NCBI RefSeq assembly: GCF_002797495.1
Contig: NZ_PGEZ01000001.1
Location: forward strand, 372,001 to 436,000
Source: Mumia flava
Lineage (GTDB): Bacteria; Actinomycetota; Actinomycetes; Propionibacteriales; Nocardioidaceae
Direction of reading: 5' to 3'
Length of the DNA stretch: 64,000 nt
Under the pieces are notes generated by a model. It did not search any database. It had not been told where the DNA came from and saw only the letters and a program-made list of their open reading frames with translations. Shown piece by piece: positions 28,723 through 43,406 of the stretch. Made by a program: the position numbers and the translations under genes. Within the stretch, counting starts at the first letter, position 1; each line of letters begins with the position of its first letter.

Positions 28723-30108
28723 CTACGCCCGCACGAGCGGCAGGGCCTCCAGGGCCGCGACGACGTCGTCGGCGTCGGCGAGCGCCCGGACACCCTCGTA
28801 CAGGCCGGCGGCGGCGCGCCGGTCCCCGGCGGAGTCGCCGAGCAGGCGTGCGACCTTCGCGACCACGTCGTCGGCCGAGAACGGGAAGTGCGCCGTGTCG
28901 CCGATCGGGTCCGGCTGAGCCAGGCCGACGGTGGTCCCGTCGGCCAGCTCGATCTCGACCTCGGTCACCCGCCGGTCGGGGAGGTAGCCGTCGAGCGCGT
29001 CGACCACGCGGACGTCGACCCGCTCGCTCACCGTCCGGGCGCGGGCGAACGCCGGCGTGCCGGGCTCCATCGTCGTCGGGTCGACGGCGCCGCTCACCAG
29101 CGCCGTCGCGACGACGAACGGCAGCGAGAACATCGCGGCGAGCCGGCTGTCGGCGCCCCGCTGGAACAGCGGGGCGGCGAGCGAGTGCGTGCCGACGCGG
29201 ACGGCGACGACGTCCTCGACGCTCCACGAACCGCTCGCGCGCAGCGCCAGCACGAGGTCGACGGCCGCGTGGGTGTACGAGCAGGCGGCGTGCTGCTTCA
29301 CGTAGCCCTCGGCAGCGAGCCAGCGCGTCCCGAGGTCCGCCGTCAGCGAGGCCGGGTCGACGTCCCCGACGAGGCTCAGCGCGCCGTACGCCCCGCCGCG
29401 GTTGGTCACGAGACCCGCGTGGGCGAGGTGGGCGGCCGAGAGGCCGGCGACGTTCGCCTGGCCCATCCAGAGGTTGCGGGTGACGTCGCCGGCCAGCACG
29501 GTCGCCCACGGCGCCACCGTCATCAGGCCCGTGGACGCGTCGACGGCGGCCGCGACCTCGTCGACGTCCCCGCCCCCGATCAGCGCCGCTGCGCAGGCGG
29601 CCCCGGTCGCTCCCCAGTGCCCGTGGGTGTGCCACGGCGCGCCCCGCCGCACGGCTCGTCCGAACCGCGCCGCGACCTCGTACCCGGCGCCGACCGCCGA
29701 CAGGAAGCGCGCACCCGAGACGGATCCGTCGGCCTGCTGCGCGGCGGCGACGGCCGCGAAGACCACGTGGGCGGCCGGGTGGCCGGCGGCGTACTTGTTG
29801 CCCTCGTCGAGCTCCTGCGAGCAGGCCGCGGTCGCGGAGAGGAGCGCCGCGGTCTCGGGCGTCGTCGTCCGGGACGTGCCGATCACGCCGCAGCGCCCGG
29901 CGGGCATCGGCCACGCGTCGAGGAGCGCGCCGATCTCGGGGGTGCGGACCGCGGCGACGGTGACGCCGAGCAGGTCGGTGAGCACGATCGGCAGTCGGTC
30001 GTGGACCGTCGGGGCGCGGTCCGGTCCGAGCGAGCGGAGCCGGGCGGCCAACGTGTCGACTGCGGAACGCATCTGTTCCGCTTGACGGAACGATTGGCTC
30101 GACTGCAT
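28723..30108 (-). CDS. MmgE/PrpD family protein (paralog 1)
   Basis: A 461-residue member of the MmgE/PrpD fold, which includes 2-methylcitrate dehydratase, cis-aconitate decarboxylase and iminodisuccinate epimerase. Family landmarks are ELDEGNKYAAGHPAAHVVFA (residue about 100, the usual LDxDD/H region), GYEVAARFGRA, HWGATGAACAAALIGG and KQHAACSYTHAAVD near 285. It differs clearly from paralog 2 at 32284. ATG 30108 is preferred because TACGGT lies exactly 6 bp upstream (leaderless type); ATG 30072 is the alternative. It is divergent from the CoA-transferase operon and an IclR-type site overlaps its first codons, so it belongs to the island. Confidence 0.8.
   Translation of the reverse strand: MQSSQSFRQAEQMRSAVDTLAARLRSLGPDRAPTVHDRLPIVLTDLLGVTVAAVRTPEIGALLDAWPMPAGRCGVIGTSRTTTPETAALLSATAACSQELDEGNKYAAGHPAAHVVFAAVAAAQQADGSVSGARFLSAVGAGYEVAARFGRAVRRGAPWHTHGHWGATGAACAAALIGGGDVDEVAAAVDASTGLMTVAPWATVLAGDVTRNLWMGQANVAGLSAAHLAHAGLVTNRGGAYGALSLVGDVDPASLTADLGTRWLAAEGYVKQHAACSYTHAAVDLVLALRASGSWSVEDVVAVRVGTHSLAAPLFQRGADSRLAAMFSLPFVVATALVSGAVDPTTMEPGTPAFARARTVSERVDVRVVDALDGYLPDRRVTEVEIELADGTTVGLAQPDPIGDTAHFPFSADDVVAKVARLLGDSAGDRRAAAGLYEGVRALADADDVVAALEALPLVRA
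30062..30091. promoter_or_regulatory. IclR-type operator, site A
   Basis: GTTCCGCTTGACGGAAC (30075-30091) is a perfect inverted repeat with 6-bp arms and a 5-bp spacer. A third half, GCGGAAC at 30062, pairs with the same left arm. The site lies just downstream of the putative start of transcription of the MmgE/PrpD gene, as for roadblock repression. Confidence 0.65.
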
Positions 30109-30114
30109 ATCTTG

Positions 30115-30120
30115 ACCGTA
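30115..30120 (-). promoter_or_regulatory. -10 element of a leaderless-type MmgE/PrpD promoter
   Basis: On the minus strand TACGGT is followed by 6 bp and then ATG 30108. Confidence 0.45.
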
Positions 30121-30250
30121 CGATCGCGCTCGCTCGAGGTCAACGCCCCCGTGGTCGCGGTTTGCTGCAATATCAGGTCGGCTGCGCGATCTTGCTGCTC
30201 CCTCTTCTCGGATCGACCCTCCTCCGGTTAGAGTGATGGCCAGCCAGAGC

Positions 30251-30267
30251 GTTTCTACAAGCGGAAT
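30251..30267. promoter_or_regulatory. IclR-type operator, site B
   Basis: GTTTCTACAAGCGGAAT has the same arm spacing as sites A and C, with one mismatch in each arm. It lies 2 bp before ATG 30270 of the CoA-transferase gene and 17 bp after a possible -10 box TAGAGT (30229-30234). Confidence 0.5.
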
Positions 30268-30269
30268 GG

Positions 30270-31469
30270 ATGAGCCTCGTGCCGGATCCCATGCCTCTCG
30301 ACGGACTGCGCGTCGTGGACGCCTCGACGATCCTCGCGGGGCCACTGTGCTGCCAGATCCTCGGCGACTACGGCGCCGACGTGATCAAGCTCGAGCACCC
30401 GGTCAACGGCGACAGCATGCGGGGGCACGGCCGCAGCAAGGACGGCGTCCCGCTGTGGTGGAAGGAGATCAGCCGCAACAAGCGGACGGTCGCGCTCGAC
30501 CTCAAGTCGGGCGGCGAGGTGTTCCGGCGGCTCGCGGCCACCGCGGACGTCGTCGTCGAGAACTTCCGGCCCGGCACCCTCGAGCGCTGGGGCATCGGCC
30601 CGGACACGCTGCTCGCCGACAACCCCGGCCTCGTGATCGTCCGGCTCACCGGCTTCGGCCAGACCGGGCCGTACGCCTCGCGTGCCGGGTTCGGCACGCT
30701 GGCCGAGGCGATGAGCGGGTTCGCGGCGACCACCGGCGAGCCCGACGGTCCGCCGACCCTGCCGGCGTTCGGCCTCGCCGACAGCATCTGCGGCATCGCG
30801 GCCTCGTCGGCGGTGATGATGGCATTGCGGCACCGCGACAGCACCGGCCGCGGCCAGGTGGTCGACCTGAGCATCCTCGAGCCGATCATGACCGCGGTCG
30901 GCCCCGGCCCGACCGTCTACCAGCAGACCGGCGAGATCGCGCAGCGCCACGGCAACCGCTCGACGAACAACGCGCCGCGCAACACCTACCGCACCGCCGA
31001 CGGAGGCTGGGTCGCGATCTCGACCAGCGCACAGCGGATCGCCGAGCGCGTCCTCGAGCTCGTCGGGCACCCCGAGGTGATCGACGAGCCGTGGTTCGCG
31101 ACGGGCGCCGGCCGGGCCGAGCACGTCGAGCTGCTCGACACGTACGTCGGCGACTGGATCGGCGCGCGCGACCGCGAGACCGTGCTCGCCGCGTTCACCG
31201 ACGCGGGCGCCGCGATCGCCCCTGTGTACGACGCACGCGACCTGGTCGAGGACCCGCACGTGCGCGAGACCGAGATGCTGGTGGAGGTCGACGACCCCGA
31301 CCTCGGGGCCCTGCTCCAGCACAACGTGATGTGGCGGATGAGCGACTCCCCCGGGCGCATCCGCTTCACCGGCCGCTCGATCGGCCAGGACACCGACGAG
31401 GTGCTGGGCGAGCTCGGCTACTCCGCCGACCAGATCGACCAGCTCAAGCGAGAGGAGACCGTCCGATGA
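30270..31469 (+). CDS. Family III CoA transferase (CaiB/BaiF type)
   Basis: Moves CoA between carboxylic acids through an aspartyl-CoA intermediate. At 399 residues it is a single-subunit-size member: MPLDGLRVVDASTILAGPLC and GADVIKLEHP at the N-terminus, NKRTVALDLKS, VVENFRPG and LTGFGQTGPYASRAGF near 120-140, then GLADSICGI with the likely catalytic aspartate near residue 170. First gene of a tightly overlapped set; its stop overlaps the next start as ATGA. ATG 30270 is used; ATG 30291 (MPLDGL) is possible and would leave site B upstream of the gene. It probably activates the substrate acid of the island. Confidence 0.9.
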   Translation: MSLVPDPMPLDGLRVVDASTILAGPLCCQILGDYGADVIKLEHPVNGDSMRGHGRSKDGVPLWWKEISRNKRTVALDLKSGGEVFRRLAATADVVVENFRPGTLERWGIGPDTLLADNPGLVIVRLTGFGQTGPYASRAGFGTLAEAMSGFAATTGEPDGPPTLPAFGLADSICGIAASSAVMMALRHRDSTGRGQVVDLSILEPIMTAVGPGPTVYQQTGEIAQRHGNRSTNNAPRNTYRTADGGWVAISTSAQRIAERVLELVGHPEVIDEPWFATGAGRAEHVELLDTYVGDWIGARDRETVLAAFTDAGAAIAPVYDARDLVEDPHVRETEMLVEVDDPDLGALLQHNVMWRMSDSPGRIRFTGRSIGQDTDEVLGELGYSADQIDQLKREETVR

Positions 31470-32287
31470 CCGACGCCCTGCTCCAGGTGGTGGGCTCCGG
31501 CCTGGAGGTCGTCGACCTCGGCCGTCAGCTGCGGACCGGGATGCCCCAGTCCCCCAACCACCCGCAGTTCTGGCACACCCTCCCCCGGCGTCACGGCGAC
31601 ATGGTGCGCTCGGACGGCAGCAGCGCCGCGAACGACATGATCTCGACCGGCACCCACGTCGGCACCCACATCGACGCGCTCGCCCACGTCTCGTACCAGG
31701 GCTCGATGTACGGCGGGGTGGACGCGGTCGCGTCCGGCGTCGGCGGCAAGTACGACGAGCTCGGCGTGCACACGATCGAGCCGATGATCCGGCGCGGCGT
31801 GCTGCTCGACGTCGCGGGGCACCTGGGCGTGGAGCACTGCGAGGGCGGGTACGAGATCACCGTCGACGATCTCGAGGCGACCGCGAAGCGCCAGGGTGTG
31901 GTCGTCGAGGCCGGCGACGTCGTGCTGATCCGCAGCGGCTGGGGCAGCAAGTTCGCCGAGGGCGCGCCGTACGTCGGCGGCCCGAGCGGCGTCCCCGGCG
32001 TCGGCGAGGACGGCGCGGTCTGGCTCGCCGAGCACGGCGTGCACGCCGCGGGCGCGGACACGATCGCGTTCGAGCGGCTCGCCCCCGGCGGCGGCCACGC
32101 GCTGCTGCCGGCGCACCGTGTGCTGCTGGTCGAGCACGGGATCTACATCATCGAGGCGCTCGACCTCGAGGGGCTCGCGCAGGCGGGCTGGAGCGAGTTC
32201 ACGCTGATGCTCGTCCCGTTGAACATCTACGGCGCCACCGGCTCGCCGGTCCGCCCGCTGGCGGTCCGTCCGAAGGGCGCGGCGTGA
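31466..32287 (+). CDS. Cyclase-family metal-dependent hydrolase (kynurenine formamidase fold)
   Basis: A 273-residue cyclase-family protein. The signature GTHVGTHIDALAHVSYQG near residue 62 gives the His/Asp metal ligands of the kynurenine formamidase and isatin hydrolase group, and the C-terminal VEHGIYIIEALDLEGLA fits the same family. Members hydrolyse amides or lactam/lactone rings. The start ATG 31466 overlaps the CoA transferase stop (ATGA), and its own end overlaps the next gene (GTGA). In this context it would open or deformylate an intermediate; no tryptophan-pathway gene is nearby, so kynurenine metabolism is unlikely. Confidence 0.85.
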   Translation: MTDALLQVVGSGLEVVDLGRQLRTGMPQSPNHPQFWHTLPRRHGDMVRSDGSSAANDMISTGTHVGTHIDALAHVSYQGSMYGGVDAVASGVGGKYDELGVHTIEPMIRRGVLLDVAGHLGVEHCEGGYEITVDDLEATAKRQGVVVEAGDVVLIRSGWGSKFAEGAPYVGGPSGVPGVGEDGAVWLAEHGVHAAGADTIAFERLAPGGGHALLPAHRVLLVEHGIYIIEALDLEGLAQAGWSEFTLMLVPLNIYGATGSPVRPLAVRPKGAA

Positions 32288-33759
32288 GCGCGCCGACCCT
32301 GGCGGAGCAGCTCGGCGGCTTCGCCGCCGCCACCGCGTACGAGGACCTGCCCGCCGACGTGGTCGACAGCGTGAAGAAGCGGGTGCTCGACACGATCGGG
32401 ATCGCGGCTGCGGCCGCGACGCTGGAGACGAGCCGCGCGGCCCGGGCCTGGGCAGCGTCCCAGGGCGGGGTCGAGGCGGCCTCGGCCGTCGGTGTGGAGC
32501 GGCGACTGCCCGCGGCGCAGGCGGCGTTCGTCAACGGCACCCTCGCGCACTCGCTCGACTACGACGACACCCACCTCCCCTCCGTGCTCCACCCGAGCGC
32601 CGCGGTCGTGCCCGCCGCGCTCGCGGCCGCGGAGCGCAACGGCGCCGACGGACGCGCCCTCGTACGGGCGATCGCGCTCGGGCTCGAGACCTGCGTCCGG
32701 CTCGGCATGGCCGGATACGACGAGAAGGCGAAGAACTCGACGTTCTTCGAGCACGGCCAGCACGCGACGTCGATCTGCGGCGCGATGGGCGGCGCGGTCG
32801 CGGCGGCCGTGCTGTACGGCGCGGACGCGCGCGGCGTGGTGGACGCGCTCGGCGTCACCGCGTCGATGTCGTCGGGCATCATCGAGGCGAACCGCACCGG
32901 CGGCACCGTCAAGCGGATGCACTGCGGCTGGGCCGCGCACGCGGCCGTCTCGGCCGCGGAGCTCGTCGCGTTCGGGTTCACCGGTCCCCCGACGGTGCTG
33001 GAGGGGCGGTTCGGCTTCTTCCAGGCCTGGCTGCACGGCGTCTTCGACCCGTCCGCGATCTCCGACGGCCTCGGCACCGACTGGGCCGTGCCGGGGATCT
33101 TCTTCAAGCCGTACCCGGCCAACCACTTCACGCACGCGGCCGTCGACGCGGCCGCCGCCCTGCGGGCCAAGGGCGTGACGCCGGACGACGTCGAGCGGCT
33201 CACCCTCGGGGTCCCCGCGCCCAACCTGCGCACGATCGGAGAGCCGATCGAGGTCAAGCGCGCCCCCGAGACCGGCTACATGGCGCAGTTCAGCGGGCCG
33301 TACGCCGTGGCCGTCGGGCTGCTCGGGGGTCACGGCCTCGGCGCCGGCGTGGAGGACTACACCGACGAGCTCGCCGTCGACCCGCAGCGTCGCGCACTCA
33401 TGGCCAAGGTCGACGTCGTCGCCGACGAGCGGTGCACCGCGATCTTCCCCCACCAGTTCCCCGCGGTGCTGACCGCGCGCCTGACCGACGGGCGCGAGCT
33501 CGTCGAGGAGGTGCTGACGACACGCGGCGGCCCGCAGCGGCCGCTGTCCTTCGCGGAGCTCACCGCGAAGTTCGAGGCGAACGCCTCACGCACGCTCGGC
33601 CCGGACGAGGTGGCCGCACTCGCGGACGCGTGCCGCGACCTCGACCACCGGACCGACCTGGGGGCCGTGCTGGCGCCGCTGACGCGCCTCGACCCCACCG
33701 GTTCTGCCGACCAGCAGAAGACGACGTCCGCCGCGGCTGCGGCGACGAGCGAAGGGTGA
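32284..33759 (+). CDS. MmgE/PrpD family protein (paralog 2)
   Basis: A 491-residue MmgE/PrpD protein with the classic landmarks: FVNGTLAHSLDYDDTHLPS near residue 85 (LDYDDTH catalytic region), HPSAAVVPAALAAAER, TGGTVKRMHCGWAAHAAVSA with the lysine/histidine pair near 215, and FKPYPANHFTHAAVDA near 280. It is much closer to the iminodisuccinate-epimerase/methylcitrate-dehydratase consensus than paralog 1. Start GTG 32284 overlaps the previous stop. The last 20 residues (SADQQKTTSAAAAATSEG) are low-complexity. Likely role: dehydration, isomerisation or decarboxylation of a carboxylate intermediate. Confidence 0.88.
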   Translation: MSAPTLAEQLGGFAAATAYEDLPADVVDSVKKRVLDTIGIAAAAATLETSRAARAWAASQGGVEAASAVGVERRLPAAQAAFVNGTLAHSLDYDDTHLPSVLHPSAAVVPAALAAAERNGADGRALVRAIALGLETCVRLGMAGYDEKAKNSTFFEHGQHATSICGAMGGAVAAAVLYGADARGVVDALGVTASMSSGIIEANRTGGTVKRMHCGWAAHAAVSAAELVAFGFTGPPTVLEGRFGFFQAWLHGVFDPSAISDGLGTDWAVPGIFFKPYPANHFTHAAVDAAAALRAKGVTPDDVERLTLGVPAPNLRTIGEPIEVKRAPETGYMAQFSGPYAVAVGLLGGHGLGAGVEDYTDELAVDPQRRALMAKVDVVADERCTAIFPHQFPAVLTARLTDGRELVEEVLTTRGGPQRPLSFAELTAKFEANASRTLGPDEVAALADACRDLDHRTDLGAVLAPLTRLDPTGSADQQKTTSAAAAATSEG

Positions 33760-33764
33760 ATCAG

Positions 33765-35234
33765 ATGACCGACTACGACCTGGTGATCACGAACGCACAG
33801 GTGGTCCGCGCGGGCCGGGACGCCCCCGAGCGCGTCGACGTCGCGGTCCGCGACGGGCGCTTCGCCGCGATCGAGCCCAGCATCGATCCTGCGAGCGCCG
33901 CCGAGGTCGTCGACGCCGGCGGCAAGCACCTCTTCCCCGGGGTCGTCGACGTGCACCAGCACTGGGGGATCTACAACGAGCTCGGCGAGGACGCCGACAG
34001 CGAGAGCCGTGCGGCGGCTCAGGGCGGTGTGACCTCCGGGATCACCTATATCCGCACCGGCGCGTACTACCTGAACCGCACCGGCCCGTACCGCGAGGTC
34101 TTCCCCGACGTGCTCGCCGCCACCGACGGCCGCGCGTACGTCGACTACGCCTTCCACGTCGCGCCGATCCTGGCCGAGCACATCGACGAGATCCCGATGA
34201 TGATCGAGGAGTACGGCGTCCCGTCGTTCAAGGTCTTCATGTTCTACGGGAGCCACGGCCTGCACGGGCGCTCCGCGGACCAGAGCTCGTTCCTGATGAT
34301 CCCCGAGGACGAGTCGTACGACCTGGCGCACTTCGAGTTCATCATGCGGGGCCTGCAGAAGGCGCGCGAGGACGAGCGCTTCGCCGAGGACCGGGACGTG
34401 ATCTCGTTGTCGCTGCACTGCGAGACGGCCGAGATCATGCGCGCGTACACCAAGCTCGTCGAGTCCGAGGGCACGCTCAGCGGCCTCGAGGCCTACAGCG
34501 CGTCGCGGCCGCCGCACTCGGAGGGCCTCGCGATCACGATCGCGTCCTACCTCGCGCACGAGACCGAGCTGCCGAACATCAACCTGCTGCACCTCACCTC
34601 CCGCAAGGCGATCGAGGCCGCGATGATGATGCAGCAGACGTTCCCGCACATCGACTTCCGTCGCGAGGTCACGATCGGGCACCTGGTCGCGAACTACAAC
34701 ACCGCGAACCTCGGCGGCAAGGTCAACCCGCCGCTGCGCTCCCCCGAGGACGTCGAGTCGCTCTGGGAGCACCTGCTCGCCGGGCATTTCTCGTGGGTCA
34801 CCTCCGACCACGCGTGCTGCCGCGACGAGGTCAAGTTCGGCGAGCCGCGCGAGGACGTCTTCCTCGCGAAGTCCGGGTTCGGTGGCACCGAGTACCTCCT
34901 GCCGGGTCTGGTCACCGAGGGGCGCAAGCGCGGCCTGTCGTACGGCCGGATCGCGGAGCTGACCGCGACCAGCCCGGCGAAGCGCTTCGGCCTGGAGAAC
35001 AAGGGCGACGTCGCGGTCGGGCTCGACGCAGACTTCTGCCTGCTCGACGACGATTTGACGTACGAGGTGCACGCCGCCGACTCGCTCTCGACGCAGGAGT
35101 ACACGCCGTTCGAGGGCTTCGAGCTCACCGCGAAGGTCACCGACACGTACCTGCGCGGCGAGGCCGTGCTGCGCGACGGTGCGATCGTCGGCTCCCCGCG
35201 CGGACAGTTCGTGCGCCGGTCCGGCAAGCGCTGA
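33765..35234 (+). CDS. Hydantoinase/dihydropyrimidinase-like amidohydrolase
   Basis: A 489-residue cyclic amidohydrolase. The whole binuclear metal site is visible: VDVHQHWG near residue 60 (HxH), the carboxylated lysine in PSFKVFMFYGS near 155, HCET near 220, HLTS near 280 and TSDHACC near 345. This set is that of dihydropyrimidinase, hydantoinase and allantoinase, which open cyclic imides or ureides. ATG 33765 has GAAGGG 8 nt upstream; GTG 33756 would overlap the previous stop. Last gene before the terminator-like stem at 35250. No carbamoylase is nearby, so the product is not obviously an N-carbamoyl amino acid. Confidence 0.87.
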   Translation: MTDYDLVITNAQVVRAGRDAPERVDVAVRDGRFAAIEPSIDPASAAEVVDAGGKHLFPGVVDVHQHWGIYNELGEDADSESRAAAQGGVTSGITYIRTGAYYLNRTGPYREVFPDVLAATDGRAYVDYAFHVAPILAEHIDEIPMMIEEYGVPSFKVFMFYGSHGLHGRSADQSSFLMIPEDESYDLAHFEFIMRGLQKAREDERFAEDRDVISLSLHCETAEIMRAYTKLVESEGTLSGLEAYSASRPPHSEGLAITIASYLAHETELPNINLLHLTSRKAIEAAMMMQQTFPHIDFRREVTIGHLVANYNTANLGGKVNPPLRSPEDVESLWEHLLAGHFSWVTSDHACCRDEVKFGEPREDVFLAKSGFGGTEYLLPGLVTEGRKRGLSYGRIAELTATSPAKRFGLENKGDVAVGLDADFCLLDDDLTYEVHAADSLSTQEYTPFEGFELTAKVTDTYLRGEAVLRDGAIVGSPRGQFVRRSGKR

Positions 35235-35249
35235 GCGTCGGACGGGACG

Positions 35250-35283
35250 AGCCCCTCCGCCGCGGTCGCGGTGGAGGGGCTCG
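35250..35283. terminator. Bidirectional terminator-like stem
   Basis: A 34-bp inverted repeat with 16-bp arms pairing at 15 positions (left arm GAGCCCCTCCGCCGCG) and a 2-bp loop lies between the convergent amidohydrolase and iclR genes. There is no clear T-run, so it may act as a simple hairpin. Confidence 0.6.
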
Positions 35284-35302
35284 CCGGCGTGGCGCGGCGC
35301 CG

Positions 35303-36082
35303 TCAGGGGCGGAGCTTGACCGTGATCTCGCGCGCGGCTCCGACCACCAGGCGCGCGAGCTGCTCGTCGGGGCGGTCGGCGTAGCGGAAGACCGGTCCGG
35401 ACACGCTCACCGACCCGAGCACGTTGCCGGCAGCGTCGAAGAACGGCGCGGCGATGGAGGCGGCGCCGGTGTTGCGCTCGTTCAGCGAGACCGTGTAGCC
35501 GCGCTCGCGGGTCGCCTCCAGCTCGGCGCGGTAGTCGGCGATGTCCAGGTCGGGCTTGCGGACCACGAGCTGGCTGATCTCGTGCTCGACCAGCGACCCC
35601 GGCAGGTGGGCCAGGATCGCCCGGCTCGACGCGCCGGAGTGCAGCGGGAAGCGGGGGCCGATCTCGACCACCATCTTGATCTCCTGCGGGCTCTCGAACT
35701 GGTCGAGGTACATCCGCTGGTTGCCGACCAGCACGGACAGCGTGGTGGTCTCCTGGGTCTCGTCCCGCAGCCGCCGCAGGATCGGCGCCGCGGTCGACCG
35801 CACGTCGAGCTGGCTCCACGCTCGCGTCGCGAGGCTGGCCGCGGCCGGGCCCAGCACGTACGCCGAGCCGCCGGGGAGCGGCTGCACGAGCGAGCGCGAC
35901 ACGAGCGACTGGAGGATCCGGTGCACGACCGCCTTGCTGAGCGACAGCGAGCGGGCGATCCGGGAGACCCCCAGGGGCTCGTCGGAGCGGGCGAAGGCCA
36001 GGAGAACGTCGGCGACCCGGTCCGCCGACTCCGTTCCGCCTGCCGTCTCGCGGGGCGATCCCGTGATCTTCTGCGTCTGCAT
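35303..36082 (-). CDS. IclR-family transcriptional regulator of the island
   Basis: A 259-residue IclR protein: winged HTH at about residues 20-80 (RVADVLLAFARSDEPLGVSR, then SLSKAVVHRILQSL) and an effector-binding domain from about 95 with GPRFPLHSGASSRAILA, a phrase typical of the family. It probably senses the substrate of the island. The repeat GTTTCGCCTAGCGGAAC lies in its own promoter and related sites lie before the divergent MmgE/PrpD and CoA-transferase genes, so one regulator for all is the simplest reading. A TATGAT box (36102-36097) and a G-run precede ATG 36082. It is divergent from the ABC importer. Confidence 0.88.
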   Translation of the reverse strand: MQTQKITGSPRETAGGTESADRVADVLLAFARSDEPLGVSRIARSLSLSKAVVHRILQSLVSRSLVQPLPGGSAYVLGPAAASLATRAWSQLDVRSTAAPILRRLRDETQETTTLSVLVGNQRMYLDQFESPQEIKMVVEIGPRFPLHSGASSRAILAHLPGSLVEHEISQLVVRKPDLDIADYRAELEATRERGYTVSLNERNTGAASIAAPFFDAAGNVLGSVSVSGPVFRYADRPDEQLARLVVGAAREITVKLRP

Positions 36083-36107: not shown

Positions 36108-36124
36108 GTTTCGCCTAGCGGAAC
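36108..36124. promoter_or_regulatory. IclR-type operator, site C
   Basis: GTTTCGCCTAGCGGAAC has 6-bp arms (5 of 6 pairing) and a 5-bp spacer, identical in layout to site A. It lies just upstream of the iclR -10 box TATGAT. Confidence 0.65.
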
Positions 36125-36228
36125 CCTATCTTGGTTCGGATCGGCGCGCTACCCCTAGACGCCACCGTCAATCCCGTGCCATACTCACGAATCACCGCAC
36201 CACCGATGACAGGCAATCACGACTTGCC

Positions 36229-36245
36229 CACCCGCTCAGCGGAAC
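36229..36245. promoter_or_regulatory. Possible IclR-type half-site D before the importer operon
   Basis: CACCCGCTCAGCGGAAC keeps the right arm CGGAAC and CCG of the left arm. It lies 75 bp upstream of the binding-protein gene. Weaker than A and C. Confidence 0.3.
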
Positions 36246-36319
36246 GAGACTCAGGACCGATGTCGTTCCTTCACCAGGAACGCTGGCTGGGAGCAGGCAC
36301 AGAAGGAAGGTTCGGACCC

Positions 36320-37540
36320 TTGAAGAAGCTCACCCTGATCACCACGCTGGCTGCGGGGAGCCTCGCGCTCGCCGCCTGCGGCGGCTCGTCGGACGACGGG
36401 TCGTCGACCGACGAGATCATGATCGGCTCGGTGCACCCCCTCACGGGCGCGCTCGCCGGCGTCGGCGCCCTGATGAACGACGGCGCCAAGCTCGCCGTGG
36501 ACGACATCAACGCCGACGGCGGCATCGAGGCCCTCGACGGCGCGCAGCTCACCCTCGGCGAGGGCGACAGCAAGGGCGCCGCCGACACCGGGCAGAGCGA
36601 GGCCCAGCGACTGATCGGCGACGGCGCCGTCGCGCTCGTCGGCACCTACCAGAGCGACGTCACCACCAACGTCGCCGCGGTCGCCGAGCGGTCGAAGGTG
36701 CCGCTCGTGATCGACGTCGCCGTCGACGACTCGATCCTCGAGCAGGGCTACCAGTACAGCTTCCGGATCCAGCCGAACGCCACCAGCATGGGCACCGACG
36801 GCGCGAACGACCTGATCGAGATGTCCGAGGCCGCCGGCAAGCCCGTGGAGTCCGTCTCGTACATCCACATCGAGGGCGCGTTCGGCCAGAGCGTGTTCGA
36901 CGCCTTCAAGGCCGAGGCCGAGGCGCAGGGCGTCCAGGTCCTCAAGGAGGTCACCTACGCCGGGACCAACTTCACCGACGCCACCACGCAGGTCCGTGAG
37001 GCCGCCTCGGTGAACCCCGACGTCATCGTCGCGACCGGCTACTACCCCGACAGCCTCCTCGTCGCCCAGGCCGTGAACGCCCTCCAGCCCGACATCGACG
37101 CGCTGTACGGCGTGGCGAACGGCGGCTTCGACGACAGCGCCTTCCCCGGCGACGCGGGCGCCGCGGGCCAGAACGTGCTCAGCGCGAACTACCACTACGG
37201 GGCCACGAACGACGAGGTCGCCGACATCCGCCAGCGGTTCCAGGAGGAGTTCGGCAAGCCGATGGAGACCGCCTCGGTCCTCGCCTACCAGTCGGTCCGG
37301 GTGATCGCCCAGGCGCTGGAGGAGTCCGGCTCGACCGACCCGGAGGAGCTGCGCAACGCGATCGCCGACATCGAGGTCGACGACCCGCTGCTCGCGTTCG
37401 ACGGTCCGATCACCTTCGACGAGACCGGCCAGAACGAGAACGCGACCGTCATCGTCATGCAGATCCAGGGCGACGCCGTGGAGCAGGTCTTCCCCGAGGA
37501 CTTCGCGACCTCCGACGTCGTCTACCCGACCAACCAGTGA
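36320..37540 (+). CDS. ABC transporter substrate-binding lipoprotein, branched-chain amino acid type
   Basis: A 406-residue lipoprotein with signal peptide and lipobox LALAACGG at about residues 18-25, then a Ser/Asp linker and a type I periplasmic binding fold (MIGSVHPLTGALAGVGALMN, DDINADGGIEAL). The start is TTG 36320 (LKKLTLITTLAAG), supported by AAGGAAGG about 9 nt upstream and by the signal peptide beginning there. LivK-like proteins with this wording also bind aromatic acids, amides and ureides, so the ligand may be the substrate of the island. First gene of the five-gene importer unit. Confidence 0.92.
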   Translation: MKKLTLITTLAAGSLALAACGGSSDDGSSTDEIMIGSVHPLTGALAGVGALMNDGAKLAVDDINADGGIEALDGAQLTLGEGDSKGAADTGQSEAQRLIGDGAVALVGTYQSDVTTNVAAVAERSKVPLVIDVAVDDSILEQGYQYSFRIQPNATSMGTDGANDLIEMSEAAGKPVESVSYIHIEGAFGQSVFDAFKAEAEAQGVQVLKEVTYAGTNFTDATTQVREAASVNPDVIVATGYYPDSLLVAQAVNALQPDIDALYGVANGGFDDSAFPGDAGAAGQNVLSANYHYGATNDEVADIRQRFQEEFGKPMETASVLAYQSVRVIAQALEESGSTDPEELRNAIADIEVDDPLLAFDGPITFDETGQNENATVIVMQIQGDAVEQVFPEDFATSDVVYPTNQ

Positions 37541-37576
37541 CCTGGTCGGTCGCACGGACCAAGGACGGGAACGGAC

Positions 37577-38569
37577 ATGAGTGACACCGTGACCGGGTCG
37601 CAGACCCGGACCGAGGGGCGGCTCCGCGTGCCGGCGCTGCCCCTCGGGGTCACCCTCGCCGTCGTCGTCGCGCTGGTGGGGGTCTACGTCTTCGGCCAGC
37701 GCGAGGCCGGCCTGGTGACCCAGTCGATCGCCACCGGGCTGCTGCTCGGCGGCGTCTACGCGCTGGTCTCGGTCGGGCTGACGCTGATCTTCGGCGTGCT
37801 CGGGATCGTGAACTTCGCCCAGGGCGCCATGCTGACGCTCGCGCTGTACCTCGTGTACACGATGACGTCGTCGTGGGGCCTGCCGGTCTACGTCGCGACC
37901 CTGATCGCGATCCCGGTGATGTACCTGTTCGGCGTGCTCGTGCAGACCACGCTGCTGAACAAGCTCACGCTCGCCGGCAGCCACGAAGGTCCGATGCTGA
38001 TCACGCTCGGGCTGTCGCTGCTGATCGCGAACGTGCTGCTGATGATCTACGGCGGTCGTCCGCTGAAGGTCGGCGGCTCGGTCGATGGCTCGATCCACCT
38101 GTTCGGCGCGATCGCGTCGTACGAGCGGGTGATCGCGTTCGTCGGTGCGCTGCTCGTGGCGTTGCTGCTGACCGTGATCCTGCGCAAGACGTCGTTCGGG
38201 ATGTCGATCCGCGCGGTCTCGGCGAACGCCCAGGGCGCCTCGCTGGTCGGTGTCGACGTCAGCCGGATCTACGGCATGACGTTCGGGATCGGCTCGGCCT
38301 GCGTCGCGGTCGCGGGTGGCCTGATGGCGCCGTTCCTCAGCCTGACGCCGTCGGTCGGCGAGCAGTTCACCATCCTCGCGTTCGTGATCGTCGTGCTCGG
38401 CGGGCTCGGCAGCGTGGGCGGCGCGATGGTCGGCGGCCTGGTGATCGGTCTGGTCCAGACCGTCGGCGCGCTGTACCTGCCGGGGACGGGCTCGCTGATC
38501 CTCGTGTTCGCCGTGTTCGTCTGCGTCCTGTTCTTCCGCCCGCAAGGGATCTTTGGAGCCAAGCCATGA
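37577..38569 (+). CDS. ABC importer permease, LivH-like
   Basis: A 330-residue integral membrane protein with about eight to nine hydrophobic segments after a 25-residue cytoplasmic start. GVYALVSVGLTLIFGVLGIVNFAQGAM-type wording (here residues 60-85) marks the LivH family, and the typical EAA-like loop lies near FGMSIRAVSANAQGASLVGV (about 212). It forms the membrane channel with the LivM-like protein, whose start overlaps its stop as ATGA. It lies 36 bp downstream of the binding-protein gene. Confidence 0.93.
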   Translation: MSDTVTGSQTRTEGRLRVPALPLGVTLAVVVALVGVYVFGQREAGLVTQSIATGLLLGGVYALVSVGLTLIFGVLGIVNFAQGAMLTLALYLVYTMTSSWGLPVYVATLIAIPVMYLFGVLVQTTLLNKLTLAGSHEGPMLITLGLSLLIANVLLMIYGGRPLKVGGSVDGSIHLFGAIASYERVIAFVGALLVALLLTVILRKTSFGMSIRAVSANAQGASLVGVDVSRIYGMTFGIGSACVAVAGGLMAPFLSLTPSVGEQFTILAFVIVVLGGLGSVGGAMVGGLVIGLVQTVGALYLPGTGSLILVFAVFVCVLFFRPQGIFGAKP

Positions 38570-39615
38570 GCGCCGTCACCGAGCGCCCCGCACCGGTCGT
38601 CGATCCCGGCGACCCGCGGCTGCGCGACCGCACCACGATGCGGTCCTTCATCGCCCTCGGCATCCTCGTCGCGCTGCTCGCGGTGCTGCCGTTCGTGCTG
38701 GACGAGCAGAGCCAGACGGTCGCGATCCGCACCCTGATCTTCGCGATCATGGCCGTCGGCTGGAACCTCATGAGCGGCTACGGCGGGATGTTCAGCTTCG
38801 GCCACGCCGCGTTCTTCGGCATCGGCGCCTACACCAGCGCGTACCTGCTGGTCGAGCACGACATCTCTCCGTGGATCGGGATGGGCGCGGGCGCCGTGCT
38901 GTCGGCGGCCGCCGGCACGCTGATCGCGTTCCTGTGCCTGCGCTACCGGCTCGCCGGGGCGTACTTCGCGCTCGCGACCTTCGCGTTCGCCCAGGTCTTC
39001 CTGCTCGCCGTGCAGAACATCGACGCGCTGAACCGTACGGAGGGTTTCAACGTGCCGATCCTGCCCGAGGAGTCGTGGTCGATGATGCAGTTCGACCAGG
39101 GCAGCCCGATCTACTACTGGATCCCGCTCGGCATCCTGACGATCGGTCTCGCCGGGACGATCTGGTTCGTGCACTCGCGGACCGGGCAGTACGTCCAGGC
39201 GATCCGCGACGACGAGGTCGCGGCCGAGTCGCTCGGCATCCCGGTGATGCGGTACCGCCTGATCACGGTCGCGCTCAGCTGTGGGTTCACCTCGCTGGCC
39301 GGCGCGTTCTACACCCAGTACTACTTCTTCGTCGGTCCGGAGCAGGCCTTCGGGGCCGCGGTGTCGGTGAACGCGATCGTGCCCGCCGTGATCGGCGGCA
39401 TCGGGACGATCTGGGGCCCGCTCGTCGGCGCCCTGATCGTCGGCCCGCTGTCGGAGTGGCTGACCGAGGTGCTGCGCGACCCGCCGCCGTTCTTGGACTT
39501 CCTGCAGGGCCTGACCGGCCTCGACGTCGCGGTCTACGCCACCCTGCTCATCCTCATCGTGCTGTTCATGCCGAAGGGCATCTACGGCACCCTGCGTGAT
39601 CGGTTCCGCTCATGA
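38566..39615 (+). CDS. ABC importer permease, LivM-like
   Basis: A 349-residue membrane protein with about nine to ten transmembrane segments. The LivM signature NLMSGYGGMFSFGHAAFFGI lies near residue 65-85, and AIRDDEVAAESLGIPVMRYR near 205 is the cytoplasmic loop that contacts the ATPases. Second permease of the importer. ATG 38566 overlaps the LivH-like stop, and its own stop overlaps the next start (ATGA), so all five importer genes are translationally linked. Confidence 0.93.
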   Translation: MSAVTERPAPVVDPGDPRLRDRTTMRSFIALGILVALLAVLPFVLDEQSQTVAIRTLIFAIMAVGWNLMSGYGGMFSFGHAAFFGIGAYTSAYLLVEHDISPWIGMGAGAVLSAAAGTLIAFLCLRYRLAGAYFALATFAFAQVFLLAVQNIDALNRTEGFNVPILPEESWSMMQFDQGSPIYYWIPLGILTIGLAGTIWFVHSRTGQYVQAIRDDEVAAESLGIPVMRYRLITVALSCGFTSLAGAFYTQYYFFVGPEQAFGAAVSVNAIVPAVIGGIGTIWGPLVGALIVGPLSEWLTEVLRDPPPFLDFLQGLTGLDVAVYATLLILIVLFMPKGIYGTLRDRFRS

Positions 39616-40331
39616 GCCTGCTCGAGGTCGAGACCCTCACCAAGTCCTTCTCCGGCCTGACCGCGGTCGACTCCGTGGACGTCACCGTCGCCGACGGCGA
39701 GTTCCTCGGCATCATCGGTCCGAACGGCGCCGGCAAGACCACGCTGTTCTCGCTGCTGGCGGGCCAGCTCACGCCGACGTCGGGCCGGGTCGTCTTCGAC
39801 GGCACCGACATCACCGGCTGGTCCCCGAACAGGGTGGCCGACGCCGGGCTGGTCCGGACGTTCCAGCTGATGCGGCCGTTCGAGAGCATGTCCGTGCTCG
39901 ACAACGTCGCGATCGCGGCGCACCACCGGCACCGCTCGCGCAAGGCCGCGCGGCGGCACGCGCTCGAGGTGATCGATCGCGTCCACCTGGAGAAGTACGT
40001 CCACGCGTCGCCGGGGAGTCTCCCGACCGCCGGGCTCAAGCGGCTCGAGCTGGCCCGCGCGCTCGCGCTGTCGCCCCGGCTGCTGCTGCTCGACGAGGTG
40101 CTCGCGGGACTCGTCCCGGCCGAGCGGGCGCCGATCATCGAGCTGTTGCGCGAGATCCACGCCGACGGCATCACGGTGATGTTCGTCGAGCACATCATGG
40201 CGGCCGTGATGGCGCTGTCGGAGCGGCTGCTCGTGATGGCGGAGGGCCGCGAGCTGGCTCTCGGCGACCCGAAGACGGTCGTGGCGGACCCGCGTGTGAT
40301 CGAGGCCTACCTCGGTGAGGAGTACGCATGA
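39612..40331 (+). CDS. ABC importer ATPase, LivG-like
   Basis: A 239-residue ATPase. Walker A is GPNGAGKTT near residue 37 and Walker B LLLLDEVLAGLVP near 157. The signature motif is degenerate, LPTAGLKRLELARAL instead of LSGGQ, as is common in LivG proteins. The Asn-Pro-rich GIIGPNG and VRTFQLMRPF segments fit the family. ATG 39612 overlaps the permease stop. It would work with the LivF-like partner that starts 4 bp before its stop. Confidence 0.93.
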   Translation: MSLLEVETLTKSFSGLTAVDSVDVTVADGEFLGIIGPNGAGKTTLFSLLAGQLTPTSGRVVFDGTDITGWSPNRVADAGLVRTFQLMRPFESMSVLDNVAIAAHHRHRSRKAARRHALEVIDRVHLEKYVHASPGSLPTAGLKRLELARALALSPRLLLLDEVLAGLVPAERAPIIELLREIHADGITVMFVEHIMAAVMALSERLLVMAEGRELALGDPKTVVADPRVIEAYLGEEYA

Positions 40332-41032
40332 TGCTCGAGATCGACGACCTGCACGCCGGATACCGGCGGCTGGAGATCCTGCACGGCCTCACGCTGCACG
40401 TGGATCGCGGCGAGATCGTCTCGCTGATCGGCGCGAACGGCGCCGGCAAGACCACCACGCTGCGTGCGGTCGCGGGGCTGATCAGCCCGACCGGCGGGCG
40501 GATCAGCTTCGACGGCCAGGAGATGAACCGCCTCAAGCCGCACCAGATCGTACGGTCGGGGCTGGTCCACGTGGCCCAGGACCGTGCGCTGTTCGGGGAC
40601 CTCCAGGTGCTGGAGAACCTCGAGATGGGCGCGTACACCCAGTCGCGCTCCACGGTCAGGCAGTCGCTGGACGAGGTCTACGCGCTCTTCCCGATCCTCG
40701 CCGAGCGCCGCACCCAGCGCGCCGACACGCTGTCGGGCGGGCAGCAGCAGATGCTCGCGATCGGCCGGGCGATGATGGCGCGACCGACCTGCCTGACCCT
40801 GGACGAGCCGTCGATCGGCCTGGCCCCGAACCTCGTCGCCCAGGTCCTCGAGGCGATCCAGCGCATCCGCGAGTCCGGCGTCACGGTCCTGATCGTGGAG
40901 CAGAACGCCTCGCAGGCGCTCGCGATCTCCGACCGCGCGTACGTGATCGAGTCCGGCTCGATCGTGCTCGACGGGCCGGCGGCCGAGCTCGCCGACGACC
41001 CGCGGGTCCGCGAAGCGTACCTGGGGGTCTGA
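40328..41032 (+). CDS. ABC importer ATPase, LivF-like
   Basis: A 234-residue ATPase with Walker A GANGAGKTTTLRAVAG near residue 35, signature LSGGQQQMLAIGRAMM near 137, Walker B CLTLDEPSIGLAP near 158 and the LivF-type ending VREAYLGV. Second ATPase of the importer. ATG 40328 overlaps the LivG-like stop. The next gene starts one base after its stop, so transcription clearly continues into the three enzyme genes. Confidence 0.93.
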   Translation: MMLEIDDLHAGYRRLEILHGLTLHVDRGEIVSLIGANGAGKTTTLRAVAGLISPTGGRISFDGQEMNRLKPHQIVRSGLVHVAQDRALFGDLQVLENLEMGAYTQSRSTVRQSLDEVYALFPILAERRTQRADTLSGGQQQMLAIGRAMMARPTCLTLDEPSIGLAPNLVAQVLEAIQRIRESGVTVLIVEQNASQALAISDRAYVIESGSIVLDGPAAELADDPRVREAYLGV

Positions 41033-41033
41033 G

Positions 41034-41339
41034 GTGGAGTTCCTCGTCCACATCGAGATCGACTGGCCGCCGGACGCCCCCGAGGAGCGCAAGGCGGAGA
41101 TCTTCGCCCGCGAGCTCGAGCAGGGACAGCGGCTGGCTGCCGCCGGGCGGCTCCGCCGGCTGTGGCGGGTGCCGGGGCGCTGGGCGAACTGGAGCCTGTA
41201 CGAGGTCGCCGACGCCACCGAGCTGCACGAGTCGCTGAGCTCGCTGCCGCTCTACCCGTGGATGGACATCGAGGTGCACGCCCTCGCCGAGCACCCGAAC
41301 GACCCGCGCGCGCTGGGCATCGACCCGGACGCGCCCTGA
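41034..41339 (+). CDS. Muconolactone isomerase-like protein (CatC family)
   Basis: A 101-residue protein that matches the whole length of CatC: the family pattern RLAAAGRLRRLWRVPGRWAN followed by SLYEV and SSLPLYPWMDIEVHALAEHP is kept. CatC moves a double bond in muconolactone in the beta-ketoadipate pathway, but no catA, catB or ring-cleavage gene is nearby, so the substrate here may be another unsaturated acid. GTG 41034 starts one base after the LivF-like stop. A dimeric ferredoxin-like fold is expected. Confidence 0.85.
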   Translation: MEFLVHIEIDWPPDAPEERKAEIFARELEQGQRLAAAGRLRRLWRVPGRWANWSLYEVADATELHESLSSLPLYPWMDIEVHALAEHPNDPRALGIDPDAP

Positions 41340-41358
41340 GGCCAGGAGGACCGACCGC

Positions 41359-42003
41359 ATGCGACTGCTCGCGATCACCCCGATCTCGGTCGACGACGCC
41401 GAGCTGCGCCGCCGGCAGGCGCGCTACGACGCGCTCGCCCCCGACGGCGTCGAGATCCACCTCGAGAACCTCGGGACCGGCCCCGACGTGCCCCGCGCGC
41501 TCGAGACCGACGAGGACGTCCGCACCAGCGAGCAGGCGCTGCTGGCGCGCTATCGGGCCGCGGACCCGACCGGGTACGACGGGTTCCTCCCCGACTGCGT
41601 CCTCGATCCGCTCGGCGAGCTCGACCACGGCCTGCCGCTCCCGGTCTTCGGGATCGGGCGGCTCGCCGCCGCGTTCGTCGCCGGCCAGGACGCGAGCCTC
41701 GCCGCCGTCGCGCGCAACGACGCGATCGCCGTGGAGCTGGACCGCAAGCTGGCGGCGTACGGCTCTCCGAGCGTCGGGCCGACCGTCGTGCTCGACCTGT
41801 CCGTGGACGACATCGCCGACGACGCCGCCTGGGCGGCGGCGGTCACCCGCCGTACGGCCGGTCTCGACTGCGACTTCGTCCTCAACGCCTGCTCGGCCGT
41901 CGAGGTCGCCGAGCAGCCCAGCGCGCCGTACCTGCTCGACCCGACTCGCACCGCGCTCGCGATGCTCGCCGTGCGGAGCGAGGCGACGGGGACACGACGA
42001 TGA
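41359..42003 (+). CDS. Asp/Glu/hydantoin racemase superfamily protein
   Basis: A 214-residue protein with the two-cysteine layout of the superfamily: one cysteine in FLPDCVLDPLG near residue 80 and the second in VLNACSAVEV near 178. The superfamily holds aspartate and glutamate racemases, hydantoin racemase and maleate cis-trans isomerase. Given the neighbouring amidohydrolase and flavoprotein, either a hydantoin-like racemase or a cis-trans isomerase of an unsaturated acid is plausible. AGGAGG lies 9 nt before ATG 41359. Its stop overlaps the next start as ATGA. Confidence 0.78.
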   Translation: MRLLAITPISVDDAELRRRQARYDALAPDGVEIHLENLGTGPDVPRALETDEDVRTSEQALLARYRAADPTGYDGFLPDCVLDPLGELDHGLPLPVFGIGRLAAAFVAGQDASLAAVARNDAIAVELDRKLAAYGSPSVGPTVVLDLSVDDIADDAAWAAAVTRRTAGLDCDFVLNACSAVEVAEQPSAPYLLDPTRTALAMLAVRSEATGTRR

Positions 42004-43406
42004 CCGCTGGAGCGGGCCGCGAGGCCGCCGACGAGGCGTTCGACGGGCCGGACGTCGTCGTCGCGGGTGCCGGCGGCGGGCTGGTCGGGGCGCTGCGCGC
42101 CGCGTCGCTCGGGCTGTCGGTGCTGGTGGTGGAGCGCAACGAGCACTTCGCCCGCGGCAACAACACCGCGATGTCGACCGCGATGGTTCCCGGCGCCGGC
42201 TCGCGCTGGCAGCGCGAGGCCGGGATCGACGACTCCCCCGCCCGGTTCGTCGGCGACGTCGAGGCGAAGACGCACGGTGAGGCTGATCTGCGGCTCGCGA
42301 CCGCGCTCGCGGACGTGAGCGCGCGGCTCGTGGAGTGGCTCGCCGACGACGCCGGTCTCCCGCTGTCGCTGGTCACGGACTTCGACTACCCCGGCCACTC
42401 GCGGATGCGCTGCCACACCGTGCCCGGCCGGTCGGGCCAGGCGATGCTCGGCGACCTGGTCCGCGCGGTCCGTGCCTCCGACCTGATCGACGTGATGACG
42501 CCCGCGCGGCTGGTCGACGTGGTGGTCGACGAGGACGGCGGCGTCCGCGAGGTGGTCGTCGACACGCCTCACGGCGAGGAGCGGATCCCCACGCGCGCGG
42601 TCCTGCTCGCCACGAACGGCTTCGGCGCCGACCCCGATCTGGTCGCGCAGCACCTGCCCGAGATCGCGGGCGCCACGTACCACGGCAGCGAGGGCTCGAC
42701 CGGCGACGCGCTGCGGATCGGTGAGCGGCTCGGCGCCGCGACCGCCTACCTCGACGCCTACCAGGGCCACGCCGCCCTGACGCCGGCGGCGACCCTGGCG
42801 GGCTGGGCGACGATCATGCACGGCGGAGTGATGGTCGACGTGCACGGTCGGCGGTTCGGAGACGAGACGACCGGCTACTCCGAGTACGCCGCACGGCTGC
42901 GGGAGCAGGACGAGAGCCGCGGCTGGATCGTCATCGACGAGCGGATCCACGAGGCGTGCCTGGTCTTCGCGGACTACCGCGACACCGTCGAGTCCGGCGC
43001 GAGCCGGCCGGCCGCGGACCTCGCCGCGCTCGCCGAGCTGACCGGCACCGACCCGGCGACGCTCGGCGCGACCCTCGACCAGGCCGGCCGCTCGGCTGCC
43101 GGCGAGCCCGACCCGTACGGCCGGTCGCGGTGGGAGGGCCCGCTGCACGCTCCGTACCGTGCGATCCCGGTCTCCCCCGCGCTGTTCCACACCCAGGGCG
43201 GGCTCGTGGTCGACGAGCACGCCCGCGTGCGCAGGGCCGACGGGTCGCCCGTGCCCGGGCTGTACGCGTCGGGCGGTGCGGCGGCCGGGATCTCCGGCCA
43301 CGGCGCGGCGGGCTACCTCGCCGGGAACGGGCTGCTTCCCGCGCTCGGGCTCGCCTTCCTGGCGGCGGAGGACGTGGCGGGCGGGTCGCCGCCGAGGTCC
43401 GGCTGA
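42000..43406 (+). CDS. FAD-dependent fumarate reductase/succinate dehydrogenase-type flavoprotein
   Basis: A 468-residue soluble flavoprotein. The dinucleotide fold VVVAGAGGGLVGALRAASLG starts near residue 20, ERNEHFARGNNTAMS follows, and the C-terminal FAD closure is THTQGG-like (FHTQGGLVVDEHARVRR) and GLYASGGAAAGISGHGAAGY. There is no signal peptide and no heme domain. Family members reduce or oxidise a carbon-carbon bond next to a carboxylate (fumarate, urocanate, tricarballylate, 3-ketosteroids). Last enzyme gene of the importer operon; ATG 42000 overlaps the racemase-like stop. It probably handles the last unsaturated intermediate of the pathway. Confidence 0.85.
   Translation: MTAGAGREAADEAFDGPDVVVAGAGGGLVGALRAASLGLSVLVVERNEHFARGNNTAMSTAMVPGAGSRWQREAGIDDSPARFVGDVEAKTHGEADLRLATALADVSARLVEWLADDAGLPLSLVTDFDYPGHSRMRCHTVPGRSGQAMLGDLVRAVRASDLIDVMTPARLVDVVVDEDGGVREVVVDTPHGEERIPTRAVLLATNGFGADPDLVAQHLPEIAGATYHGSEGSTGDALRIGERLGAATAYLDAYQGHAALTPAATLAGWATIMHGGVMVDVHGRRFGDETTGYSEYAARLREQDESRGWIVIDERIHEACLVFADYRDTVESGASRPAADLAALAELTGTDPATLGATLDQAGRSAAGEPDPYGRSRWEGPLHAPYRAIPVSPALFHTQGGLVVDEHARVRRADGSPVPGLYASGGAAAGISGHGAAGYLAGNGLLPALGLAFLAAEDVAGGSPPRSG

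Follow-up and report, generated by a model that had tools for sequence, protein, structure and literature searches.

What does a bacterium degrade with a gene set in which a ring-opening amidohydrolase, a CoA-transferase and an importer of the branched-chain amino acid type stand beside a single regulator? This question is raised by a gene island of Mumia flava, a strain whose 4.4 Mb genome is 99.75% complete. The island lies in a stretch of 64,000 nucleotides (contig NZ_PGEZ01000001.1, positions 372,001 to 436,000), hereafter the window, and is built around two divergent promoters. One separates the gene of an MmgE/PrpD-family protein (PrpD1) from those of a family III CoA-transferase (CoAT), a Cyclase-family hydrolase (Cyc), a second MmgE/PrpD-family protein (PrpD2) and a cyclic amidohydrolase (HYD); the other separates an IclR regulator from LivKHMGF, a CatC-like protein of the MIase family, an allantoin/hydantoin-racemase-like protein (AGrac) and a flavoprotein. 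We propose that the island is one IclR-controlled regulon for the catabolism of a small cyclic ureide, of the hydantoin or dihydropyrimidine type, or of a cyclic amide, a reading to which we give about an even chance. The original prediction for this DNA had listed the same genes: a Pfam scan of ten island proteins returned the families named there, and LivH, LivM, LivG and LivF, outside that scan, were identified by inspection of the sequence and by homologues in the loci of relatives. The two MmgE/PrpD proteins, said to be dissimilar, share 29% identity across 199 residues. The overlap of the genes by ATGA or GTGA is real at 6 of the 10 same-strand junctions (4 bases each), but not at the remaining ones.

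That the island forms one conserved catabolic unit, as had been supposed, is borne out by its relatives. Bacterial and archaeal contigs were scanned with six exact HYD peptides, which gave 586 HYD relatives (595 stretches); the best 80, hereafter the named loci, all bear actinobacterial names, with 22 genus names in their record titles (counted by hand) and Nocardioides as the closest matches. The complete loci are the 57 named loci with at least 9 kb on each side, in which gene presence was scored by tblastn. All four core genes (CoAT, Cyc, PrpD2, HYD) were found in 49 of these 57 loci, chosen by HYD, and in 42 they have identical order and strand; individually, CoAT is present in 57, PrpD2 in 54 and Cyc in 51. 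The remaining genes are less constant: IclR occurs in 37 complete loci, the flavoprotein in 25, AGrac and PrpD1 in 20 each, LivK in 13, a major facilitator superfamily (MFS) protein in 5 and the MIase-family protein in 4, and over all 80 named loci the IclR gene was counted 49 times, PrpD1 25 times and the MIase-family gene 7 times. The CatC-like isomerase, included in the original prediction as part of the pathway, is thus present but accessory. The Liv importer is likewise present here, but across the relatives it is only one of several alternatives, the others being an MFS protein (plasmid pDND3A of Rhodococcus gordoniae) and an ATP-binding cassette type with an NMT1-like binding protein. 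CoAT, PrpD2, HYD and IclR are retained in every one of the 13 complete named loci that have LivK, LivH and LivM. In five Rhodococcus-type loci AGrac, the flavoprotein, HYD and CoAT follow Liv consecutively; Cyc was not found in these five, where the stretch examined begins with PrpD2, and may have been cut off at the edge. An independent clustering of open reading frames (ORFs) in 99 loci gave HYD in 96, PrpD2 in 84, CoAT in 83, Cyc in 80, a CitE-like lyase in 61 and IclR in 57; L013 and L030 were omitted from it, having sequence in common with L048 and L118, and L108 and L109, which also share sequence, are both counted among the named loci. Furthermore, HYD was found at an E-value of at most 1e-150 in 11 of 396 sampled genomes of the phylum and, with a strict E-value limit, in 8 of 39 related genomes, in both cases as one copy each and with the M. 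flava genome included. Matches of at least 60% identity are present in other genomes, some of which carry two copies.

The second line of evidence comes from an operator-like site, derived from a repeat seen in the two intergenic regions of the island, so that its first two sites cannot count as independent evidence. If up to two mismatches are allowed, the pattern has 6 matches in the window against 2.05 expected, a number reached by 2 of 100 shuffles. A relaxed pattern, GTTYCN5GCGGAA, was fixed before the outcome of the first scan of relatives; it has 6 exact matches in the whole genome (none for the reversed pattern), three of which stand at the two divergent promoters of the island (30076 on the minus strand, 30251 and 36108 on the plus strand). 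Of the others, one is near a contig end and two lie at G000:C1:1867655-1868582, on both sides of a different IclR gene between genes that by eye resemble PcaHG and PobA, so that related IclR proteins may share one site. In relatives, a looser scan found the site in 21 of 83 regions upstream of CoAT, that of the window included. In 13 near relatives it precedes CoAT in all 13 and IclR in 9 of 11, and the 29 matches (27 places) in 267 kb are all beside island genes; these 13 were picked after the looser scan had been seen, which makes the 13/13 biased, and a recount by bands of HYD identity, covering all named loci with a usable upstream region, is preferred. At HYD identities of at least 80% the site precedes CoAT in 11 of 11 loci and IclR in 7 of 9; at 75-80% the counts are 4/7 and 3/4, at 70-75% 2/17 and 1/9, and below 70% 2/37 and 6/27, the reversed control giving 0 in every band. 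Co-regulation of the two arms, claimed from the start, is well supported by these patterns for islands like that of the window, where this IclR would bind the site; in distant variants the site is different or absent. A chance assembly was rejected in view of the conservation in relatives, which, joined to the common operator, indicates more than chance.

From a biochemical perspective, indications on the substrate come from HYD and AGrac. The binuclear site of hydantoinase/allantoinase-type amidohydrolases (HxH, carboxylated Lys, His, His, Asp) is found complete in HYD, as had been noticed: none of the 96 family members compared has lost H64, H66, K156, H218, H276 or D348, whose presumed roles follow in part from aligning HYD with allantoinases and a hydantoinase of solved structure. 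The top Foldseek matches of its AlphaFold2 model (mean predicted local distance difference test score, pLDDT, 86.8) are the Escherichia coli allantoinase and D-hydantoinase, with template modelling (TM) scores of about 0.8. The profile scores are 229 bits with the allantoinase AllB model TIGR03178 and 167.9 bits with the D-hydantoinase/dihydropyrimidinase model TIGR02033, below the cut-offs of 357.85 and 393.25. In AGrac, the two cysteines of the Asp/Glu/hydantoin racemase superfamily are present (C80 and C178 in 22 of 22 members), together with its fold. A PDB sequence search with AGrac returned no match, and the first eight PDB matches of its model (pLDDT 93.5) by E-value are allantoin racemases (TM 0.75-0.79) and hydantoin racemase (0.63-0.67). 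Maleate isomerases reach only 0.59-0.60, and a role of AGrac as maleate isomerase was rejected on this ground. Cyclic ureides are the leading class of substrates because HYD and AGrac have folds closest to allantoinase/hydantoinase and allantoin racemase.

Among the other enzymes, CoAT belongs by sequence to the family III CoA-transferases and has D171, presumably the catalytic Asp, in 82 of 82 members; its PDB relatives are YfdE, formyl-CoA transferase and the benzylsuccinate and succinate-hydroxymethylglutarate CoA-transferases, and several CoAT relatives act on dicarboxylates. Cyc keeps H64, H68, D70 and H74 in 80 of 80 members and has isatin hydrolase and kynurenine formamidase among its PDB relatives, while PrpD2 keeps H103, H160, K210 and K275 in 83 of 83, its best PDB relatives being IDS-epimerase and cis-aconitate decarboxylase. 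These counts omit members below 70% of the reference length (one PrpD2, one CoAT), and the roles of the conserved residues in the five enzymes are in part our assumption. When aligned to flavocytochrome c3, the flavoprotein retains the GR and HTxGG positions, whereas the NR belonging to the C-terminal motif is missing. The PDB relatives of LivK did not narrow its ligand.

A further enzyme emerges from the relatives. A CitE-like lyase gene is present in 45 of the 57 complete loci, between HYD and IclR in L040 and others. It is found (by tblastn or ORF clustering) in 20 of the 26 importer-type loci, defined by HYD together with three or more Liv genes (duplicate L030 omitted, L108 and L109 both counted), and it is missing from none of the 13 complete named loci that carry LivK, LivH and LivM (12 by tblastn, L043 by ORF clustering). 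The best NCBIfam match of the L040 protein is RipC_Ccl, which it reaches at 130 bits, the cut-off being 375. The original prediction could not see this exit step, because the island of M. flava has no CitE/RipC-like gene. The best homologue in its genome (G000:C1:576662, about 170 kb from HYD) is 47% identical to the L040 protein and matches the RipC model at 146.7 bits. It belongs to a second cluster, L122 (G000:C1:567000-586900), in which this RipC-like lyase scores 147 bits (cut-off 375). The scores of its neighbours are 203 bits (cut-off 340) for a RipB-like hydratase, 253 (cut-off 700) for a mesaconate-CoA-transferase-like protein, 50 (cut-off 106) for a Rid-like protein and 200 (cut-off 278) for an F420-type LLM oxidoreductase; a PrpD protein and a thiolase-family protein are also encoded there. 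In up to 8 of 99 loci (e.g., L016, L017, L019, L060, L097, L098) genes of the same kinds stand next to the HYD core, and in M. flava the distant L122 lyase would serve the island.

Additional hints are provided by four sister operons, in Nonomuraea cavernae, Microbispora, Actinophytocola xinjiangensis and Nocardiopsis flavescens. There, the CoAT-Cyc-PrpD2-HYD row is preceded by codirectional genes for a three-subunit molybdenum (Mo) hydroxylase, a ureidoglycolate-lyase-family (PF04115) protein, a PrpD protein, a flavoprotein and an importer of the NMT1 type; the Pfam scan covered two of the four PF04115 proteins and one NMT1-type binding protein. The best-matching models for the Mo-hydroxylase subunits are those of glyceraldehyde and CO dehydrogenases, with scores below cut-off, and two of the four loci, L105 and L117, also have a gene of the old yellow enzyme (OYE) type. 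The stretches L132-L135, taken with L117, L105, L081 and L087, show a long operon-like row, a cupin gene included, upstream of the core. An OYE/FadH-type flavoprotein that clusters with the OYE of the sister operons is also encoded in the window, at 12930-14969, about 14 kb from the island.

Taken together, the folds of HYD and AGrac and the genes of the sister operons favour ureide or cyclic-amide chemistry, and a path can be outlined. LivKHMGF would import the small cyclic ureide or amide, whose ring would be adjusted by AGrac at a stereocentre and by the flavoprotein at a C-C double bond, through either reduction or oxidation. HYD would then open the ring by metal-dependent hydrolysis, and Cyc would hydrolyse the resulting ureido or amide group, unless the nitrogen group is eliminated. 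A hydration, dehydration or elimination by PrpD2 would yield a dicarboxylate, which CoAT would turn into its CoA ester, and a CitE/RipC-like lyase, represented in M. flava by homologues elsewhere in the genome, would cleave the ester to an oxoacid and an acyl-CoA. The general scheme of import, ring opening and CoA transfer in the original prediction is therefore retained; the substrate class, the order of the reactions and the identity of the dicarboxylate we infer from protein families and gene neighbourhoods. The statement that a hydantoin pathway does not fit agrees with the lack of a recognised carbamoylase in the island, but was too strong in view of the allantoinase/hydantoinase and allantoin-racemase types of the HYD and AGrac folds. 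A more specific version, in which the pyrimidine- or hydantoin-type ring is a masked branched dicarboxylate, is decidedly unlikely: HYD would open the ring, urea would be eliminated with no carbamoylase involved, and an unsaturated or hydroxy dicarboxylate of the C5 type would pass through its CoA ester to pyruvate and acetyl-CoA. A conceivable example, the compound being our own suggestion, is 5-carboxymethyl-dihydrouracil, converted through 2-(ureidomethyl)succinate to itaconate. If true, this version would join the catabolism of nucleobase-like ureides to a citramalyl-CoA exit.

Several observations weigh against a ureide or amide regulon. HYD is below the cut-off of every NCBIfam family among the 25 listed of 57, and AGrac has a TM score of 0.67 with aspartate racemase, as near as with hydantoin racemase, so that only the allantoin racemases stand out. 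The ten scanned proteins of the island include no recognised carbamoylase, a genome-wide search not having been made. The CitE/RipC-like lyase is absent from the 64-kb window, where the gap between HYD and IclR is 68 bases, and no such gene lies in the examined stretch of 6 of the 26 importer-type loci (L033, L034, L038, L052, L058, L096). The operator fades with HYD distance, from 11/11 to 2/37 before CoAT, and the named loci, picked by HYD similarity alone, sample HYD-bearing loci only. The ureide argument drawn from the sister operons is indirect, because the M. flava genome has no PF04115 protein and a hidden Markov model of the four known ones finds no further member in the loci examined.

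Among the alternatives, a cyclic imide route has the merit of giving exactly one step to each core gene, and yet appears rather unlikely. HYD would act as an imidase on a maleimide- or succinimide-type ring, Cyc would convert the half-amide to a (substituted) maleate, PrpD2 would add water to give a malate, and CoAT would form malyl-CoA for cleavage by the CitE-like lyase, with the flavoprotein desaturating succinate forms. The isatin-hydrolase-like Cyc, the relatives of PrpD2, the fumarate-reductase type of the flavoprotein and the proteins in 5 loci that cluster with PF17645 (arylmalonate-decarboxylase family; Pfam run on two) agree with it, whereas the greater nearness of AGrac to allantoin racemases than to maleate isomerases and the ureidoglycolate-lyase-family gene of the sister operons do not. 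An N-heteroaromatic route, which we consider unlikely, starts from those same operons: the Mo enzyme would hydroxylate a compound of pyridine or pyrimidine type, an OYE/FadH-type protein would reduce it and HYD would open the dihydro ring, islands of the window type importing a partly processed ring. The position of the Mo-hydroxylase genes, codirectional with the core, and of OYE genes in two of these loci fits this scheme, but Mo genes occur in only four of the loci examined, their similarity to known dehydrogenases stays below cut-off, and the island of the window has neither Mo-hydroxylase nor OYE genes.

It is very unlikely that the two arms act on different substrates and have only the regulator in common; many loci do keep the core without Liv, AGrac and the flavoprotein, but the 13 loci with LivK, LivH and LivM all keep the core enzymes named above and IclR, the operator is on both arms in near relatives, and in the five Rhodococcus-type loci genes of both arms are consecutive. 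An ordinary allantoin or purine pathway can hardly be credited. HYD and AGrac do resemble allantoinase and allantoin racemase, but a separate allantoinase is encoded at G000:C1:2609016 (527 bits, above cut-off), whereas HYD is below cut-off, and a plain allantoin pathway was rejected on this ground; with this true allantoinase and no ureidoglycolate-lyase-family (PF04115) protein in the genome, the island is not the usual pathway, and an exit by CoA-transferase and CoA-lyase is not known from allantoin degradation. A plain aromatic pathway, dismissed from the outset, was likewise rejected: the island has no ring-cleavage oxygenase and its MIase-family protein reaches 95 bits with the muconolactone-isomerase model TIGR03221, against a cut-off of 130.6. 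A cyclic ureide or amide is the preferred substrate.

The claim that the island is undescribed also stands as far as the open-licence literature goes, where searches for the gene combination, for isonicotinate/citrazinate pathways, for cyclic imide with maleate isomerase, for ureidoglycolate lyase with CoA-transferase and for allantoin racemase with hydantoinase gave no description of this gene set. HyuA/HyuB proteins of the hydantoinase/oxoprolinase type are treated in PMC9477822, whose main text does not mention MmgE, CoA transferase, cyclase or IclR. An unassigned catabolic unit common in actinobacteria would imply a common, overlooked substrate, which should be within direct reach through LivK, the single regulator and the four core enzymes.

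The coordinates of the features are collected in Table 1. For PrpD1 the start at 30072 is preferred over 30108, because the operator at 30076-30091 would fall within the longer frame.

Table 1. Genes and operator-like sites of the island (window coordinates).
Feature	Position	Strand	Basis
PrpD1, MmgE/PrpD-family protein, accessory	28723..30072	-	Pfam PF03972/PF19305
IclR-type operator-like site 1, at PrpD1 start	30076..30091	-	GTTCCGTCAAGCGGAA; exact GTTYCN5GCGGAA match
IclR-type operator-like site 2, directly before CoAT	30251..30266	+	GTTTCTACAAGCGGAA; exact GTTYCN5GCGGAA match
CoAT, family III CoA-transferase, core	30270..31469	+	PF02515, 386 bits
Cyc, Cyclase-family metal hydrolase, core	31466..32287	+	PF04199
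PrpD2, MmgE/PrpD-family enzyme, hydratase/dehydratase/decarboxylase/epimerase type, core	32284..33759	+	Pfam
HYD, allantoinase/hydantoinase-type cyclic amidohydrolase, core	33765..35234	+	Pfam, metal-site residues, fold model
IclR-family regulator	35303..36082	-	PF09339/PF01614
IclR-type operator-like site 3, IclR/LivK promoter	36108..36123	+	GTTTCGCCTAGCGGAA; exact GTTYCN5GCGGAA match
LivK, Leu/Ile/Val-type substrate-binding lipoprotein	36320..37540	+	PF13458; PDB relatives; probable TTG start
LivH permease	37577..38569	+	ORF; homologues in syntenic loci
LivM permease	38566..39615	+	Homologues in syntenic loci
LivG ATPase	39612..40331	+	Homologues in syntenic loci
LivF ATPase	40328..41032	+	Homologues in syntenic loci
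MIase-family protein, accessory	41034..41339	+	PF02426, 113.7 bits
AGrac, allantoin/hydantoin-racemase-like protein, accessory	41359..42003	+	PF01177, 31.5 bits against a cut-off of 31
Flavoprotein (FAD), fumarate/urocanate-reductase type, accessory	42000..43406	+	PF00890; alignment to flavocytochrome c3

Downstream of the flavoprotein gene (window 43490-44083) a protein of 197 residues is encoded, with no Pfam match and with halves that look similar by eye. Plasmid 3 of Variovorax sp. PBL-E5 (L012, 830-14439) carries a 34-36% identical HYD homologue beside genes for a flavoprotein, a nitroreductase and an IclR regulator; the same region adjoins cofC, cofD, cofE, cofG and cofH (coenzyme F420) and genes for an LLM oxidoreductase and a RidA protein.

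Four known systems can be set beside the island. The beta-ketoadipate pathways for aromatic compounds have PcaR/IclR regulators, and the island resembles them in its IclR control, in the MIase family and in the operator present also at the locus of the genome assigned by eye as PcaHG/PobA-like, but it differs in having no ring-cleavage dioxygenase and a MIase-family protein below the muconolactone-isomerase cut-off. Allantoin degradation, which comprises AllB, allantoin racemase and ureidoglycolate lyase, offers the nearest folds for HYD and AGrac and the family of a sister-operon gene; here, however, the true allantoinase is elsewhere in the genome and the island has CoA steps. Hydantoin utilisation is based on hydantoin racemase, hydantoinase and carbamoylase, and the island likewise brings an enzyme of the hydantoinase type, HYD, and an allantoin/hydantoin-type racemase-like protein into one regulon, but no carbamoylase was recognised among the ten proteins scanned; CoAT, Cyc, PrpD2 and a CoA-ester lyase are, to our knowledge, not part of that system. 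Finally, itaconate degradation, in the outline given in PMC12290011, proceeds through a CoA-transferase, an itaconyl-CoA hydratase and an (S)-citramalyl-CoA lyase. Compared with that outline, the island has in common the exit by CoA-transferase and CitE-type CoA-ester lyase, RipC_Ccl being the best NCBIfam match of the island-type lyase; it differs in that this lyase is far below the RipC cut-off, in that a RipB-type hydratase is missing from the island (a RipB-like one is in L122), and in that the island adds ring-opening enzymes, a racemase-like protein and an importer.

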